From contig NZ_VTWU01000001.1 in NCBI RefSeq assembly GCF_008727865.1, positions 620,001-684,000 of the forward strand: a stretch of 64,000 nt of DNA, written 5' to 3'. Below the pieces are notes generated by a model that searched no databases, was not told the DNA's origin, and was given only the letters and a program-made list of their open reading frames with translations. This DNA comes from Hymenobacter busanensis (GTDB lineage Bacteria > Bacteroidota > Bacteroidia > Cytophagales > Hymenobacteraceae). The translations under genes were made by a program, and so were the position numbers. Below, piece after piece: positions 31,223-39,361 of the stretch. Position 1 is the first letter of the stretch; every line of letters starts with the position of its first letter.

Positions 31223-32560
31223 TTAGTGCACCACCAGCTTCTGCTGGGCAACGCCTGCTGATGACCGCAGCTCCAGCGTGTACACGCCCGCGCCCTGCCC
31301 AGACAAATCAAGAGTTAGGTCATCGGACTGACCGGGCTTTACGGCCTGCGTGAGTACCACGCGGCCCACGGCGTCGCGCACCAGCACGTCGGTTGCGCCC
31401 GCGCGCAGCGGTACCCGGAACTGCCCGTCGTGGCTGGGGTTGGGGTAGGCCGGAGCTACTACCGCCAGCTTCGCAGTGCCGGCCGCCAGGGTAGTGCCGG
31501 TGTATTTGTGCAGGCCGGTGCCGCCCGCTATTTCGCCGCTTGAGTCGAGGCGCACGCCGCCCGACCAGCCTGCAGTGGGGCTTGCAAAAGCCACCAGCGC
31601 GTGGTTTACCGTGCTTTCAATGGCCGTCCAGGTCTGCCCGTCGTTGGTGGAGTACGACGAGCCCGAGCCGCCCGGTAGCCCGCTGAAACCGGTGCTGACG
31701 TAGGTGCGCGTGCCGGGCACGGCCGCCAGCCCAATTATGTGGTGCGGGCCGGTGGGGTTCACCGCCGCCCACGTGATGCCACCGTCGGTAGTGCGCTGCA
31801 GGTCGCCTTCGTCGCTCATCAACAAGCCGTTGTTGGCGTCGCGGAAGGTCAAGGCTTCGGGAAAGTCGAAGCTGCCAAAGCCCGTGGTGGCCACGTTCCA
31901 GGTCAGGCCGGCATCGGTCGAGCGAAAAACGCGGTTTTCGCTGGTTGCAAACCACAAGCTGTTGCCCACTTGCGCAACCACCGGCACCAGCAGGTCCACA
32001 AACTCATCGGGCTGCGCGGCCGGAATATTGGCGGCCGGTACCGCCGTCCAAGACGTGCCACCGTTCGAGGTGGTGTATATCTCGATTCGATTATTGGCCG
32101 CCTCGCCAATGGCCACGCCGCGGTTGGCGTCGAAGAAGCGCACGTATACCGGATACCCTTCGACAGAAGCAAACTGCCCGGTGGTCGTCGTTTGAACCCA
32201 GGTAGCGCCGCTATCGGTGGTTTTCAGGATGCGCCCGGGCGCCACGGGTGCGCTGGGGGCAATGGCGGCCCAGGCCGTGCTGGCGTTCAGGGCGTGGATA
32301 TCCGAAATGTATTCCGTAGCTGTCAGGCCGGGAAGTACTTGCGCCGACCAGGCCGCGCCCCCGTTTACGGTGCGGGCGTAGGTAGCGGTGCGGTCATTAT
32401 TGACTTCCACCACCGTCGTCCAGGCCACGTTGGCATCCACCGCCGAAATAGTGAAGTTCAGGTAGGCCGGCGAGGCAAAACTGATGGGCTGGCTGACCCA
32501 TTGGGCCGTGGCGAGGTAGCTGCTTCCCAGGAAACTCAGCAGCAGTAGGGCTTTTTTCAT
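31223..32560 (-). CDS. T9SS type A secreted beta-propeller (Asp-box) protein
   Basis: A 445-residue exported protein. The signal peptide is MKKALLLLSFLGSSYLATAQ. The body carries Asp-box blades typical of sialidase/VPS10-like propellers: KTTDSGATWVQT, TTSNGGTSWTAV, STDAGLTWNVA, TTDGGITWAAV and STNDGQTWTAI. The last 80 residues form a type A T9SS sorting domain (VAPAYPNPSHDGQFRVPL ending in QQKLVVH). It is a more distant paralogue of the two genes at 43756 and 45451. Hydrolase activity is not predicted; such propellers often bind ligands. Confidence 0.88.
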   Translation of the reverse strand: MKKALLLLSFLGSSYLATAQWVSQPISFASPAYLNFTISAVDANVAWTTVVEVNNDRTATYARTVNGGAAWSAQVLPGLTATEYISDIHALNASTAWAAIAPSAPVAPGRILKTTDSGATWVQTTTTGQFASVEGYPVYVRFFDANRGVAIGEAANNRIEIYTTSNGGTSWTAVPAANIPAAQPDEFVDLLVPVVAQVGNSLWFATSENRVFRSTDAGLTWNVATTGFGSFDFPEALTFRDANNGLLMSDEGDLQRTTDGGITWAAVNPTGPHHIIGLAAVPGTRTYVSTGFSGLPGGSGSSYSTNDGQTWTAIESTVNHALVAFASPTAGWSGGVRLDSSGEIAGGTGLHKYTGTTLAAGTAKLAVVAPAYPNPSHDGQFRVPLRAGATDVLVRDAVGRVVLTQAVKPGQSDDLTLDLSGQGAGVYTLELRSSAGVAQQKLVVH

Positions 32561-32721
32561 GCGTAATGTAGCGTGAGGAGAAAAGAAAGATGGGTCAGGA
32601 ACCCGGGCCGAATGCCGTTGCAAGGAGGGCCAGACCAGCTAAAGAGCCTGCGTCATATAGGAAAGTTGTACAGCTCCCCCGAATATGTGAGGACCAGAAC
32701 AGCCCAGCCGGCACACCACAG

Positions 32722-33575: not shown

Positions 33576-34076
33576 CTAGGAGCGCACTACCGGGCGCTTG
33601 GCGTAGCGGCGGGTGTGACCGGCCGTCAGCACGTATTTGGTGGCCTGGCCCACGGCCGTGTGCTTCAGGAAAGGGTTGCTAACCGGCGTACCGGCCAGCG
33701 TGCTGGCTGCCACCGGAGCCGACATCGGCACCAAGGCTACCGAACCCAGCGCGAGGCGCGGCTGGCGGGCGTTTACCTGAAATACGGGGCGCAGTTGCTG
33801 GTAGCCCAGTACCGTGGTGCGCAGCCGGTATTGGCCGAAAGGCAGGTTGCTGACGCTAAACGAACCGTCGGCGCGGGTGGCTACGCTGCACACATAAGCG
33901 TTGTCGCTGGCACGCAGCACAATAACGTTGGCTTGCGGAATGGATTCCTGGGTCTGGCCGTCGAGCAGCTTGCCCGAAATAGTGCCCATTTGGGCGGTTT
34001 TGGTACCAGCGGTGAGGTTGAGGGCGGCCAAAAGGGCCAGGCTGAAAAAGAAGAAGCGGGCTACGAGCGTTTTCAT
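33576..34076 (-). CDS. Secreted stand-alone carboxypeptidase-regulatory-like domain protein
   Basis: A 166-residue exported protein starting at the ATG at 34076 (MKTLVARFFFFSLALLAALN). Residues of about 30-120 are a CarboxypepD_reg-like beta-sandwich: GTISGKLLDGQTQESIPQAN, then DGSFSVSNLPFGQYRLRTTV and LGYQQLRPVF. This domain aligns closely with the N-terminal domain of the TonB-dependent receptor at 35117 (GVVSGTLLDGANRQPLPFAS, SVLGYGVLRRAV). The C-terminal 45 residues are basic and unlike anything I know. Its upstream region carries the same palindromic operator and -7 placement as the receptor gene, so the two are probably co-regulated. The leader is long, about 215 bases. Confidence 0.82.
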   Translation of the reverse strand: MKTLVARFFFFSLALLAALNLTAGTKTAQMGTISGKLLDGQTQESIPQANVIVLRASDNAYVCSVATRADGSFSVSNLPFGQYRLRTTVLGYQQLRPVFQVNARQPRLALGSVALVPMSAPVAASTLAGTPVSNPFLKHTAVGQATKYVLTAGHTRRYAKRPVVRS

Positions 34077-34296: not shown

Positions 34297-34334
34297 TAAA
34301 GATAATGACAGGTACTTTGTGATGCAAGGTACTA
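34297..34334 (-). promoter_or_regulatory. Palindromic operator with -7-like element, copy 1 (small secreted gene)
   Basis: CAGGTACTTTGT (34309-34320) and GCAAGGTACTA (34324-34334) form an imperfect palindrome around GAT. A -7-like TATCTTTA lies at 34304-34297 on the minus strand. Motif and distance match those at 37775-37814 base for base in layout. The site lies just upstream of the -7, where a repressor would block polymerase. Confidence 0.6.
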
Positions 34335-35046
34335 TCGAATTATTTTTTCTTTTCAACGTTTTTTGCTGCACTTGGCCAAGAAAAGAGGCCAGATTAGCAA
34401 TTGGAGATGAAGGAAGTGGGAGCTTACGAAGGCAACTTAGGACTATGGCTTGCGGAGAAGCGGTGCGCTAGGCGGCTTTCGGAGTGGTAGATGGAGGCTG
34501 AAAAGGAAGCGTTGCCTGGCGTTGCAAAAACTTTTCTGGCAGATGTACCAGGCAGGATGTAGCAACCGTTTCGTCGGCACAAGCATGTTGGTTTTCTGTG
34601 TTGCGACGGTGCAAAGGTAGCGGCAGCGTGAAGGGTGCTACAATCGCACAATGATGTGGGACGTCGGGCTCTGCAAAGGCAATGAGGCGGTTACGCGGCT
34701 GTAGCCAAGCCAGCCCACCGAAAGAGCCACATGCTTTTCAGTCCGCACGGGAGGCGAATCCTGGGAAACTGTACCATCGCACAACTCGAATGTTGAACAG
34801 GAAACTTGTGTCTTGCTTCGGCCTCCTCGAACGGAGCCAGGAAGCAACATCTGCTGCATTGACTACGAAACTATTCGTAGGTTGCGCGTGGTATACATGA
34901 CTGGTAAAATATTTTGTTGGGTACATGCTCATCGAAGAATTAAGGGTGTGAAAACCCATGTGTCTTTACTTGAGTGGCAGTTGAAATTCGTGAGTCGACT
35001 GTGGCGCCTCTTACGAGTTGTATGATGGATGATATGGGCAGAAAGA

Positions 35047-35083
35047 ATTCCGCCAGCGCACCTAGTAGGTACGCTGGCGGAAT
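35047..35083 (-). terminator. Terminator after the TonB-dependent barrel gene
   Basis: Perfect 12-base stem ATTCCGCCAGCG/CGCTGGCGGAAT (35047-35058 with 35072-35083), extendable inward with one mismatch. It lies 33 bases beyond the receptor stop. The following minus-strand sequence has short T runs. Confidence 0.65.
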
Positions 35084-35116
35084 AGGCATAGTATGAGTAG
35101 CCGGTTGCGGAAGGGG

Positions 35117-37591
35117 TTAGCCGCCGAAACCACCACCACCGCCTTGCGGCTGGTTCTCGATTTTCTTAGGTGGTTTGTTCGAGCCCATGTACCACGAGAA
35201 GCCCAGGTAGCCCACGCGCGACTCCCATTTGTTGTAGTTGCTGAACTCGTAGCCCGGGGCGAAGGCAGTGCTGCGCTGGCGTTGCGTATTGAACACATCC
35301 GAAACGCGCAGCGTGAGAGCGGCCCGGTCGTTGAAGAGGCGCTGGCGCAGGGCCATGTCGATTGAGCTAACCGGGGCAATGCGGCCTTGCGTGGTGAGGG
35401 CTGCGGCCCGGTAGTTGCCAGTCAGCTGCACATCGAGTTTCGGCGTTGGGGTGAAGGAGTTCATCACCCGGGCCGTGCCCGATACCGTGCGGCGGCTCGA
35501 TTCGGTACCCGTGGCGGCCGTCACGCTGCTCTCAAACAACGAGCCGTTGGCCGTCAGGCGCCACCATTTGGTTACGGGCTGGTTCACCGACAATTCGGCC
35601 CCGTAGCTCAGTGCCTGACCAAAATTGGTGTTGTAACTGGCGGTAATCACGGCCCCGCCGCCGTAGAGTTGGGTGGCCGTAGCGTCTACCCGGCGCAGCT
35701 GCTGAATGGCGTTGGTGGTTTGGCGGTAAAACAGCGTAGAGCTGATATTAGCTTGGCCCAGTGTCATTTGGTGGCCCAGCTCCAGCGCATTGATGTATTC
35801 GGGGCGTAGGGCCGGGTCGCCGATGCGGTAGTAGCGCTGGTCCTGGTAGAGCGGGAAGGCCAGCAGCTGCATGAAGTTGGGGCTGTTCAGGCGGCGCGAG
35901 TAGCTCAGCTGCACGCGCTGGTCGGCAGTGGCCAGGGTGCGCGCCAGGGTAGCCGAGGGAAACAGGTTCAGGTACTCCAGCTTGAAGGGGCCTTTGCCGT
36001 TTACTACCTCGCCTTGCGTATTGGTGTACTGCACCCGCAGACCCGCCAGAACCCGCCATTTGGCCCATTCCTGCTGGTAGTTCACGTAACCGGCTTGGTT
36101 GTACTCGGCAAAATCGTAGGCGTAGGAGCGGTCGGCCAACCGCTCGTAGCTGCGCGTTTCGCCCACTTGGCGCAGAAAGTTATCGGTGCCGTTGTTGTTC
36201 TGGCGCTGGGCTTTCAGCCCCGCTTCGAAACGGGCTTTATTGGCCAACGGGTGCACATAATCCACTTGCCCATCCCAGGAACGCAGATCAACGTGGAGGT
36301 CCTGCTGCCACTCGCGCAGGTCGGTGCCAGTGGGGCCGCTGGTGTTGCGCTGGGCCACCAGCACGTTGGCATCGAGGTAGGTGAAGCTGGCCGAAGCCGT
36401 TAGTTCGCGCCCCTTGTGGGCTTCCCAGGTGCGGCGGTAGTCGAGCGAGGCGTCGTGGTTGTCTACGTTTTCCGACACGCCGAACGTGCTGCCCAACTGA
36501 CGGTCCGTTTCGCCTGCCGTGCGGAGAGTGGCCAGCTGCATGCCGCCGTTTCTGCTGCGGTTGAAGCCGGGCTGCAGCGTCAGCGTCAGGGTCTGGGCGG
36601 GCGTCAGGTTCAAGTCGAAGCCCAGGCGGCCGCTGTAGTTTTTGGCGTGGCGCAGGTTGGTGCCTTCCTGAAAGGTGCTCAACGTCTGGCCTTCCAGCAC
36701 GGTCTGCTGGTCACTCCACATACGGCTGCGGAAGTTCGCGTCGCGCATGTCTACCGAGCCGAAGACGTTCAGCTTACCGGCACGGCGGTTCAGGCTCAGG
36801 CTGCCGTTGTACTTGTCGCGGGTGCCCACGGTAGCGGTGGCTTGGCCGTTCCAGCCGTCTTTCTTCTGCTTTTTCAGGATGATGTTGATGACCCCGCCAC
36901 CCCCGGCCGCATCGTAGCGGGCCGACGGGTTGGTCACCACTTCCACCTTTTCGATGCTGCTGGCCGGAATCTGCTCCAGGCGGTTGCCGCCGGCCCCGCT
37001 GGAAGCCGAGGTCGGCTTGCCGTCCACCAGGATGGTGATGTTGGAGCTGCCGCGCATGCTCACGGTGCCATCGGGCGCCACGGCTACCGAGGGCACATTT
37101 TGCAGCACGTTCACGGCCGTGCCGCCCACGCTGCTCAAATCCTTCTCCACGTTAATCACCTTCTTGTCGAGGCTTTCTTCCACCGCCGCCCGCTGGGCCG
37201 TCACGGTCACGCCTTTCAATTGGGTTGTCGTGGGTTGCAGGGTTACTGTGCCCAGCGGCAGTTCGGCCGTTTCGCCCGACAGCGTGACGGCGCGGCGCAG
37301 CACCCCGTAGCCCAGCACCGAGGCCTTGAGGGCGTAGGAACCGGGCTTCACCGATTCCAGTCGGAAAGCGCCGTTTTCAGCAGTTTGCGCCCCGGTTATC
37401 ACGGCCGAATCGGGCAGGTGCAGGAGCAGCACGCTGGCAAAAGGCAAGGGCTGGCGGTTGGCCCCGTCGAGCAGCGTGCCCGAAACGACGCCGGAAGCCG
37501 GCCTGTTCTGGGCCTGCAAACCCAGCGGAAAGAGCGTCAGCAGGAGGCCAGAGCACAGCAGTGCCCGGTAAGGGAAGGTAGCCAGTACCAT
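35117..37591 (-). CDS. TonB-dependent receptor, outer-membrane beta-barrel family (OMP_b-brl_3 type)
   Basis: An 824-residue outer-membrane protein. The start at 37591 gives the signal peptide MVLATFPYRALLCSGLLLTL with a cut near LQAQ. A CarboxypepD_reg domain (about 33-120) is followed by a plug (SLDKKVINVEKDLSSVGGTA, SSIEKVEVVTNPSARYDAAG) and a long barrel with a C-terminal glycine-rich tail. This is the barrel family without a SusD partner; the cargo is unknown. Transcription starts from a good promoter overlapped by a 13-base-arm palindrome, shared with the small secreted gene at 33576. The leader is about 180 bases. Confidence 0.93.
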   Translation of the reverse strand: MVLATFPYRALLCSGLLLTLFPLGLQAQNRPASGVVSGTLLDGANRQPLPFASVLLLHLPDSAVITGAQTAENGAFRLESVKPGSYALKASVLGYGVLRRAVTLSGETAELPLGTVTLQPTTTQLKGVTVTAQRAAVEESLDKKVINVEKDLSSVGGTAVNVLQNVPSVAVAPDGTVSMRGSSNITILVDGKPTSASSGAGGNRLEQIPASSIEKVEVVTNPSARYDAAGGGGVINIILKKQKKDGWNGQATATVGTRDKYNGSLSLNRRAGKLNVFGSVDMRDANFRSRMWSDQQTVLEGQTLSTFQEGTNLRHAKNYSGRLGFDLNLTPAQTLTLTLQPGFNRSRNGGMQLATLRTAGETDRQLGSTFGVSENVDNHDASLDYRRTWEAHKGRELTASASFTYLDANVLVAQRNTSGPTGTDLREWQQDLHVDLRSWDGQVDYVHPLANKARFEAGLKAQRQNNNGTDNFLRQVGETRSYERLADRSYAYDFAEYNQAGYVNYQQEWAKWRVLAGLRVQYTNTQGEVVNGKGPFKLEYLNLFPSATLARTLATADQRVQLSYSRRLNSPNFMQLLAFPLYQDQRYYRIGDPALRPEYINALELGHQMTLGQANISSTLFYRQTTNAIQQLRRVDATATQLYGGGAVITASYNTNFGQALSYGAELSVNQPVTKWWRLTANGSLFESSVTAATGTESSRRTVSGTARVMNSFTPTPKLDVQLTGNYRAAALTTQGRIAPVSSIDMALRQRLFNDRAALTLRVSDVFNTQRQRSTAFAPGYEFSNYNKWESRVGYLGFSWYMGSNKPPKKIENQPQGGGGGFGG

Positions 37592-37774
37592 ACAGTCAGG
37601 AAGTGAGGGGTGAAGGAACGGGGCGCACTTCGTCAGCGGACCGCGCATCCGCCAGAGCTTGCCAAGTGGTTCAGTCAGGTGTACAGCCGCTGCCAATGGG
37701 CAATACAATGCCCGGGCGCAGTCGGCGCCGATTTTTTGAAGCCAGGAGAAAGGATGTTTCCTCTAAGGTTGATA

Positions 37775-37823
37775 CAAATATAAAGGCAGGTACTTTGCAA
37801 CGCAAGGTACCTGCTAAGAAAAA
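37775..37823 (-). promoter_or_regulatory. Receptor promoter with palindromic operator, copy 2
   Basis: On the minus strand TATATTTG (37782-37775) is a perfect -7 element, with a TTG 20 bases upstream inside the palindrome. The palindrome is GCAGGTACTTTGC (37786-37798), AAC, GCAAGGTACCTGC (37802-37814), matching at 12 of 13 arm positions. It fills the space between -7 and -33, as expected for a repressor site. The same layout lies at 34297-34334. Confidence 0.7.
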
Positions 37824-37948: not shown

Positions 37949-39361
37949 CTATTTCTTATCCGGAGCCGTCACCACTTGGCCGTTACGGAACGTTTTCTTC
38001 TGTTGCACGGCCTTGCCATCCGGACCGAAGTAGGACCATACGCCGGTTTCGCGGTTGTTGCGGAATTGGCCGGCTACCTCGGCGGTTCCATCCTCGCGCA
38101 GTTGTCGGTAAGGCCCCAGTTTCTGGCCCGACTTCCAAGTGGTTTCGGCGCGCAGCTTTCCTGAGGCGTAAAACTCCTGCTCCAGGCCAGTTGCGCGGCC
38201 GTTTTCGAAAGTGACTTTACGCGCCACTTGGCCGTTGGGGTGGTACGTGAGTTGCTCCCCCACGAGCCGGTTGTTCGCGTAAGTTTCTTTCCGCTCCAGC
38301 TGCTTGCCGCCGGGAAAAAATGTGCGCCAGGTGCCGGTGCGCACGTTGTTTTTGTATTCCTGCTCTTCGTGCACGCCGCCGGCTTCGTAATAGGTCGTGA
38401 TTTTCCGGTCGCGGCCCAGGTTGGCGTAGTCCACTTCCTGTTCGGTTTTGCCGGACGGGTAGAGGTACTTGGCTTGACCGGACAGTACGCCGCCTTTGTA
38501 GTTCTGCGTGCTTTTGAGGGCCCCGGTTTCGTAGTAGGTTTTTACCAGGCCTTCCAGGTTGGCGGTGCCCGGCGCCAGTTGCTGGGCGCGTTTGGTGAGG
38601 TCGTCGCCCAGCGGGTTTTTCACCGGGCGCGTGGCCGCAGTAGCCGGCACGTAGTTGCCTTCGGTTTTGAGTTTGCCCGAGGGGTAATAGCTGCGCATGG
38701 TGCCGCGGCCGGTCTTGTCCATCGTCACCTCGGTTTCCAGCTGGCCGTTCTCAAACCACGTTTTGTAGCCGCCGGCCAGCAAGCCGTTGCGGTAAGTGCC
38801 TTCGCTCTGTTGCTGGCCACTGGCAAAATAGGTGCGCACCACCCCGTCGGGCTGGCCGTTGCGGTAGCTGATTTCGGCCTGGGGCTTGCCCGACGCATAC
38901 ACCTGGCGCACCACGCCCTGGGGCTGGCCCTTCAGCAAGGTCGTTTCCAGCTTCAACTCGCCCGAGGGGTGGTACATTTTGATGGTGCCCGTGGGCTGGT
39001 CGTCTTCGTAGCTGCCTTCCTGCGCCAACTTGCCGCTGGGGTAGTAGGTGCGAAACGGTCCTTGCCGCTGCCCTTCGCGAAACGTCACTTCCAGCCGCCG
39101 TTGGCCGGTTTCGAAGTACTCCGTGTAGGCGCTGTCGGCCTTGCCAGCGCGGTAGCTGGTTTGCACCTCCAATTTGCCCGAGCGGTAAAACCGTTTGTAG
39201 TTGCCCTCCAGCACGGTGTCGGCTCCCACCAGGGCGTGGTACACCTCGCGTTTTTTCACGTGGGTGGTGTCGTAATACGTAGTCAGTACCCGGGGCCGCT
39301 GAGCCCAAGCCGGGGCCGCAGCAACTATCAGCAGCAAAAGCGGCAAGCAAAATCGAATCAT
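37949..39361 (-). CDS. Secreted MORN-repeat (YwqK-like) protein
   Basis: A 470-residue exported protein with signal peptide MIRFCLPLLLLIVAAAPAWA. Almost the whole mature chain is MORN-type repeats of about 23 residues: YYPSGKLAQEGSYEDDQPTG, YHPSGELKLETTLLKGQPQG, YASGKPQAEISYRNGQPDG and many more. Databases often label such proteins as YwqK family antitoxins, but in Bacteroidota they are exported repeat proteins of unknown function, perhaps in lipid or envelope binding. No toxin gene is adjacent. A 42-residue insert with an alanine/threonine/proline stretch (around ATAATRPVKNPLGDDLTKRA) splits the array in two. Confidence 0.85.
   Translation of the reverse strand: MIRFCLPLLLLIVAAAPAWAQRPRVLTTYYDTTHVKKREVYHALVGADTVLEGNYKRFYRSGKLEVQTSYRAGKADSAYTEYFETGQRRLEVTFREGQRQGPFRTYYPSGKLAQEGSYEDDQPTGTIKMYHPSGELKLETTLLKGQPQGVVRQVYASGKPQAEISYRNGQPDGVVRTYFASGQQQSEGTYRNGLLAGGYKTWFENGQLETEVTMDKTGRGTMRSYYPSGKLKTEGNYVPATAATRPVKNPLGDDLTKRAQQLAPGTANLEGLVKTYYETGALKSTQNYKGGVLSGQAKYLYPSGKTEQEVDYANLGRDRKITTYYEAGGVHEEQEYKNNVRTGTWRTFFPGGKQLERKETYANNRLVGEQLTYHPNGQVARKVTFENGRATGLEQEFYASGKLRAETTWKSGQKLGPYRQLREDGTAEVAGQFRNNRETGVWSYFGPDGKAVQQKKTFRNGQVVTAPDKK

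Follow-up and report, generated by a model that had tools for sequence, protein, structure and literature searches.

HAAS-PadR-like wHTH systems have been put forward as an alternative to two-component signalling, in which the HAAS domain would relay a signal from the membrane to PadR (PMC11237479). These systems combine a stand-alone PadR wHTH protein with a neighbouring membrane protein carrying HAAS, PspC, LiaI-LiaF-TM and Toastrack domains, for which membrane-stress sensing was proposed (PMC11237479), and the system that we describe here in Hymenobacter busanensis appears to have the same arrangement. The word 'TonB' is absent from the main text of that report, which is not known to give an operator or regulon; in contrast, we identified a putative operator from the sequence, with putative targets in the outer membrane. 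Two of these putative targets, genes for a TonB-dependent receptor and for a small secreted protein, lie in the window, that is, the whole 64,000-nt stretch of DNA that was analysed.

PadR-type repressors are also known from Listeria, a Gram-positive genus. The Listeria repressors resemble the regulator predicted here in that they are PadR-type and act on genes of trans-membrane proteins (Hauf 2019), but their targets are not TonB-dependent receptors. In Zobellia, the PadR gene ZGAL_1768 and the gene downstream of it were induced by six polysaccharides (PMC5613140). On the receptor side, the function of the SusC-type N-terminal extension (NTE) domain was described as unknown in a study of Bt1763, where a transporter deprived of its NTE no longer supported growth on levan and a role in the choice of TonB was suggested (PMC7782687). 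Unlike the NTE described for Bt1763 (PMC7782687) and BT3090 (PDB 9hfj), the domain considered here also exists as a secreted protein of its own that has neither plug nor barrel. STN-domain and anti-sigma signalling by TonB-dependent receptors likewise ties a receptor N-terminal domain to regulation, but through a different domain, STN, rather than the NTE (PMC7782687). Among the papers listed in searches of full-text literature, which lies mostly outside subscription journals, none linked PadR, HAAS or PspC to TonB-dependent receptors, and none of those listed for a loose operator query gave this operator. A HAAS-PadR regulon with outer-membrane targets, as predicted here, was not found in print in that literature.

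Putative palindromic operators in the window and the genome

The receptor gene (35117..37591, minus strand) encodes a signal peptide (identified by eye), an N-terminal CarboxypepD_reg domain (the NTE), a plug, a PF14905 barrel and a glycine-rich C-terminus. Its start was set by eye at MVLATF from comparison with relatives; the listed open reading frame starts at 37708. Matches to plug and beta-barrel families were all above the Pfam cut-off (PF14905, 294.7 bits; PF00593, 74.9 bits; PF07715, 40.1 bits), whereas NCBIfam contained no above-cut-off match for the receptor, the small protein or PadR. The gene of the small protein (33576..34076, minus strand) lies about 1.0 kb downstream of the receptor gene. 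A terminator-like hairpin of 17 pairs follows the receptor gene (35047..35083, minus strand); the hairpin scan of the region gave five sites versus 6.6 in shuffled sequences, such that the class is not enriched, and the stem of the receptor hairpin is among the two longest. Because of this strong hairpin between them, the receptor gene and the small gene are probably separate units, and each would need its own operator. Neighbouring genes in the window (37949-39361 and 31223-32623) encode a protein with MORN repeats and another that combines BNR repeats with a secretion-system C-terminal sorting domain.

The initial annotation had placed twin palindromes before the receptor and small genes, at equal distances from the respective -7 boxes, and both are present. 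The receptor promoter contains GCAGGTACTTTGC-AAC-GCAAGGTACCTGC (37786..37814, minus strand), a perfect consensus match that is conserved in relatives, and its -7 box, TATATTTG (37775..37782, minus strand), is 7 bp from the operator core. The palindrome of the small-gene promoter, CAGGTACTTTGT-GAT-GCAAGGTACTA (34309..34334, minus strand), is also a perfect match, and here the -7 box is TATCTTTA (34297..34304, minus strand), the last base of which differs from TANNTTTG, the Bacteroidota -7 box consensus. The core of the operator is 21 bp long, GTACYTTG-N5-CAARGTAC, and is positioned 7 bp upstream of the -7 box at both genes. The consensus of the initial annotation occurs at two places in the window (three rows, one of which is the receptor site on the other strand), 100 shuffles of the window yielded no consensus matches, and no further operator sites were found within the window. 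From these data we conclude that the two palindromes are more than chance.

Only three perfect sites were found in the 4.89-Mb genome, the two in the window and a third at C9:247782, which precedes a padR gene and again has a TATATTTG box at 7 bp. This gene is on another contig (C9:247383-247736; L010:4384-4737), encodes a stand-alone wHTH protein of 117 aa (PF03551, 63 bits); no other gene of the genome matches PF03551. The initial annotation had suggested a PadR-like regulator outside the window and a genome scan for a regulator with the motif in its own promoter; the scan thus led to the sole padR, and the suggestion is strongly supported at the level of sequence. Among the 15 genome matches to the small protein are five other NTE receptors, none of which has a site (the best has five mismatches); the remaining matches were covered by the whole-genome site searches.

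A related family of palindromes, TTACTTTG-N5-CAAAGTAC, is found in relatives and in this genome, where one member (L011:2715-2736) lies upstream of a 279-aa open reading frame. It is probably owned by another regulator, and it inflates site counts with one mismatch. The near-match at C4:450715 (L011) is one of these palindromes and was rejected as a copy of the same operator.

The free NTE-domain protein and the receptor loci of relatives

The small protein has 166 aa, with a signal peptide (identified by eye), one CarboxypepD_reg domain (about residues 30-118) and a basic tail of low confidence. Its matches to PF13620 (46.5 bits) and PF13715 (39.8 bits) are both above the Pfam cut-off, and the receptor N-terminus also passes the cut-offs for CarboxypepD_reg and CarbopepD_reg_2. 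As the small protein stops about 50 aa beyond the domain and matches neither plug nor barrel families, it is a free domain and not a transporter. It had been described as a close relative of the receptor NTE. The relationship is real, in that, itself aside, no protein of the genome matches it better than the receptor does (54.5 bits versus 43.3 for the next), but closeness is another matter, since its identity to the receptor NTE is only mildly above background (33%, versus 31% to the next genome match).

In a tree of 88 columns, in which many forks are unresolved, the small protein clusters with other free domains and not with this receptor. The window-type free domains form a single group of 26 (SH-aLRT 94); types A and B were sorted by first residues, and one second match (E 150) was dropped. 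We rejected a recent origin by copying from the NTE of this receptor because the window-type free domains cluster as a group of their own. On close orthologue pairs we also rejected decay of the small gene: pairs with dN under 0.1 gave omega values of 0.07-0.36, indicating purifying selection. Values for the other pairs range from about 0.2 to more than 1, with dS close to saturation, and are little informative. The small protein is a member of a conserved family of free SusC-type NTE domains without a plug.

A named scan gave 25 receptor loci, 24 from Hymenobacteraceae and one from Saprospiraceae (29% identity); the latter has no site in the stretch examined. The expectation that the motif recurs in orthologous promoters was borne out, as a site with at most one mismatch precedes the receptor or its gene pair at 24/24 Hymenobacteraceae loci and padR in 30/30 chosen family genomes from six genera; some of the 24 loci are from strains that are also in the other family genome set. 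In 17/24 loci the site is directly before the receptor, with the -7 box at 7 bp. At six others (L214, L215, L218, L220, L224 and L228), no consensus -7 box accompanies the receptor-proximal site at the usual place, and it is the first site, located in front of a type A free gene, that has such a box; at L226 the site lies before the free gene, and this gene overlaps the receptor frame.

Co-occurrence of the two genes in relatives, which had also been suggested as a check, is frequent rather than universal: a free gene is near the receptor in 21/24 Hymenobacteraceae loci, in several gene orders, and is absent from three. Own operator sites precede 17/34 free-domain genes. The second free type (A) precedes the receptor and has its own site in 8/8 cases, whereas among window-type genes 9/26 have an own site and 17/26 have none. 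Joint switching is therefore probable for the two genes in the window, both of which have the site, but is not a general rule; the predicted co-regulation of the small gene is looser than that of the receptor.

These distributions also bear on whether the free NTE has a function connected with the receptor or is simply a secreted transthyretin-like protein of the same regulon. The fold is very common, and pilin, carboxypeptidase and transthyretin domains match the predicted model of the small protein as well as or better than the SusC NTE does; sequence searches of solved structures gave distant matches only. An identity of just 33% to the partner NTE, the loci that lack the free gene and the window-type genes that lack a site fit the second possibility as well. 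However, the recurrent proximity to the receptor despite changes in gene order, the single group under purifying selection and the consistent placement of type A before the receptor with its own site argue for a tie, and we consider a protein with no functional tie to the receptor somewhat unlikely.

Other genes were found near sites in relatives. Among 40 stretches around family sites, which were chosen by hand, some of them for free-domain matches, 29 contained a receptor relative, three contained padR and eight contained neither; a receptor is near a site in all six genera covered. Corresponding numbers for 20 stretches around order and class sites were eight with padR, two with a receptor relative and ten with neither. 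The two receptor relatives are just downstream of the site (L256, and L254, which has no consensus -7 box). In genus g3 (L149, L160, L161 and L168) a site and -7 box precede a short secreted-looking open reading frame of 63-90 aa with a common EQPVMxVxLDTVEI-like stretch, apparently a further regulon member; L149, one of the 22 'receptor' loci in the -7-box count, is not a receptor. Sites also precede a secreted-looking protein of 154-159 aa in genus g5 (L154 and L157; the first 60 residues in L154 have no Pfam match) and, as perfect sites with no -7 box at the usual spacing, open reading frames of 102 or 149 aa (L147 and L169). Two sites about 250 bp apart lie upstream of the receptor in genus g6 (L145, L146, L164, L165 and L166), which suggests looping or two promoters. 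An extra secreted-looking gene of 126-128 aa lies between the receptor and free-domain genes at L206, L207, L209, L210, L213 and L229, and at L134, L135, L136, L225, L227 and L228 another receptor gene, more distant (about 45% identical), comes after the free-domain gene. The receptor open reading frame at L227:5833-8333 is split into two overlapping frames.

PadR, its membrane partner and ownership of the operator

The gene after padR encodes a membrane protein of 875 aa that has two PspC stretches, LiaI-LiaF-TM and Toastrack/DUF2807. It is above the Pfam cut-off for PF04024, PF22571, PF22744 and PF10988 and passes NCBIfam TIGR02978 (PspC). In this genome the N-terminus matches HAAS (PF22564) below the cut-off (E 0.00045, 21 bits versus a 27-bit cut-off); among the aligned partner N-termini, HAAS was matched in 49/64 at E 0.01 or better, with a best value of 1.8e-8. 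By eye, the GxP motif of HAAS reads MGxP in several class relatives and MGRV in this genome. A partner with this N-terminus adjoins padR in 64/64 loci, comprising 30 from the family, 26 from elsewhere in the order and class and eight further order loci.

We assign the operator to PadR because the site has the same place relative to the -7 box at three promoters and because site and regulator are co-distributed across genomes. A TANNTTTG box is within 10 bp of the site before padR in 29/30 of the chosen family genomes. Sites with at most one mismatch were found in 120/120 sampled family genomes versus 7/120 for the reversed control, a count to which the TTACTTTG-N5-CAAAGTAC family contributes in part. 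In the order, the perfect site was found in 30/148 genomes and the reversed pattern in none, and this PadR was found in 86/148 genomes at E 1e-20 or better.

An assignment from position and co-distribution leaves room for another regulator that owns the palindrome and acts on padR, the receptor gene and the free gene, with PadR being just one more target. Such a regulator would account for the 56/86 PadR-bearing order genomes without a perfect site, and the similar TTACTTTG-N5-CAAAGTAC palindromes in these genomes may have a different owner. Conversely, all 30 perfect-site genomes carry this PadR, with the site within 250 bp of padR in 27/30, and 0/62 PadR-less genomes have a perfect site; the chance that all 30 would fall among the 86 by random draw is 6e-9, ignoring kinship. 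PadR regulators usually have a site in the promoter of their own gene, which also counts against a different owner. We regard ownership by another regulator as quite improbable.

Elsewhere in the order and class, 14 of the 26 padR loci have a site (at most two mismatches) and 12 have no good site, possibly because padR lies inside an operon at these loci. Two padR-like loci from other classes (L204 and L205, E about 1e-13) have no good site, with five and six mismatches, and were left out of the 26. The spacing seen outside the family (L180, L181, L185, L187, L198 and others) is about half a helical turn off. An activating or dual role of PadR at the receptor promoter could be read from this spacing, as the padR site is 12-13 bp rather than 6-7 bp from the -7 box at 12/14 site-bearing loci outside the family, but at 7 bp the site would occupy the gap between the promoter elements, where repressors classically bind, and we regard such a role as quite improbable.

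Proposed mechanism and its significance

Our preferred reading, to which we give a probability of about 0.78 on the basis of the sequence comparisons, is that both window palindromes are PadR operators and that PadR works with the HAAS membrane partner, such that the padR operon, the receptor gene and the free NTE gene would be derepressed together. According to this model, a PadR dimer would bind the site and block RNA polymerase. The membrane partner would sense an envelope signal and withdraw PadR via its putative HAAS domain, and this withdrawal would relieve repression of the padR operon, of the gene for the outer-membrane receptor and, in this genome, of the gene for the secreted free NTE. 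Receptor and free NTE would thus be produced at the same time, the latter acting in the periplasm. The free NTE is most likely a periplasmic accessory of the receptor that makes the same contacts as the receptor NTE, which is the least certain step of the model; as a guess, it might compete with the receptor NTE for its partner, or bridge that partner. The roles put forward in the initial annotation, a decoy, a partner of the receptor or a ligand carrier, fit the present data equally.

A broader and more speculative proposal is that a Lia/PSP-type inner-membrane sensor (HAAS-PspC-Toastrack) runs an outer-membrane remodelling regulon via PadR beyond the family, and that in Hymenobacteraceae free NTEs have evolved that compete with or bridge the receptor NTE at TonB or another periplasmic partner, providing soluble gain control of one transporter. 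We consider this proposal unlikely in its full form.

The operator is compact and the list of its targets is short, such that the predicted regulon can be read from the sequence and tested directly. Natural free copies of the NTE near the receptor, some of them under the same operator, provide a handle on the function of this domain.
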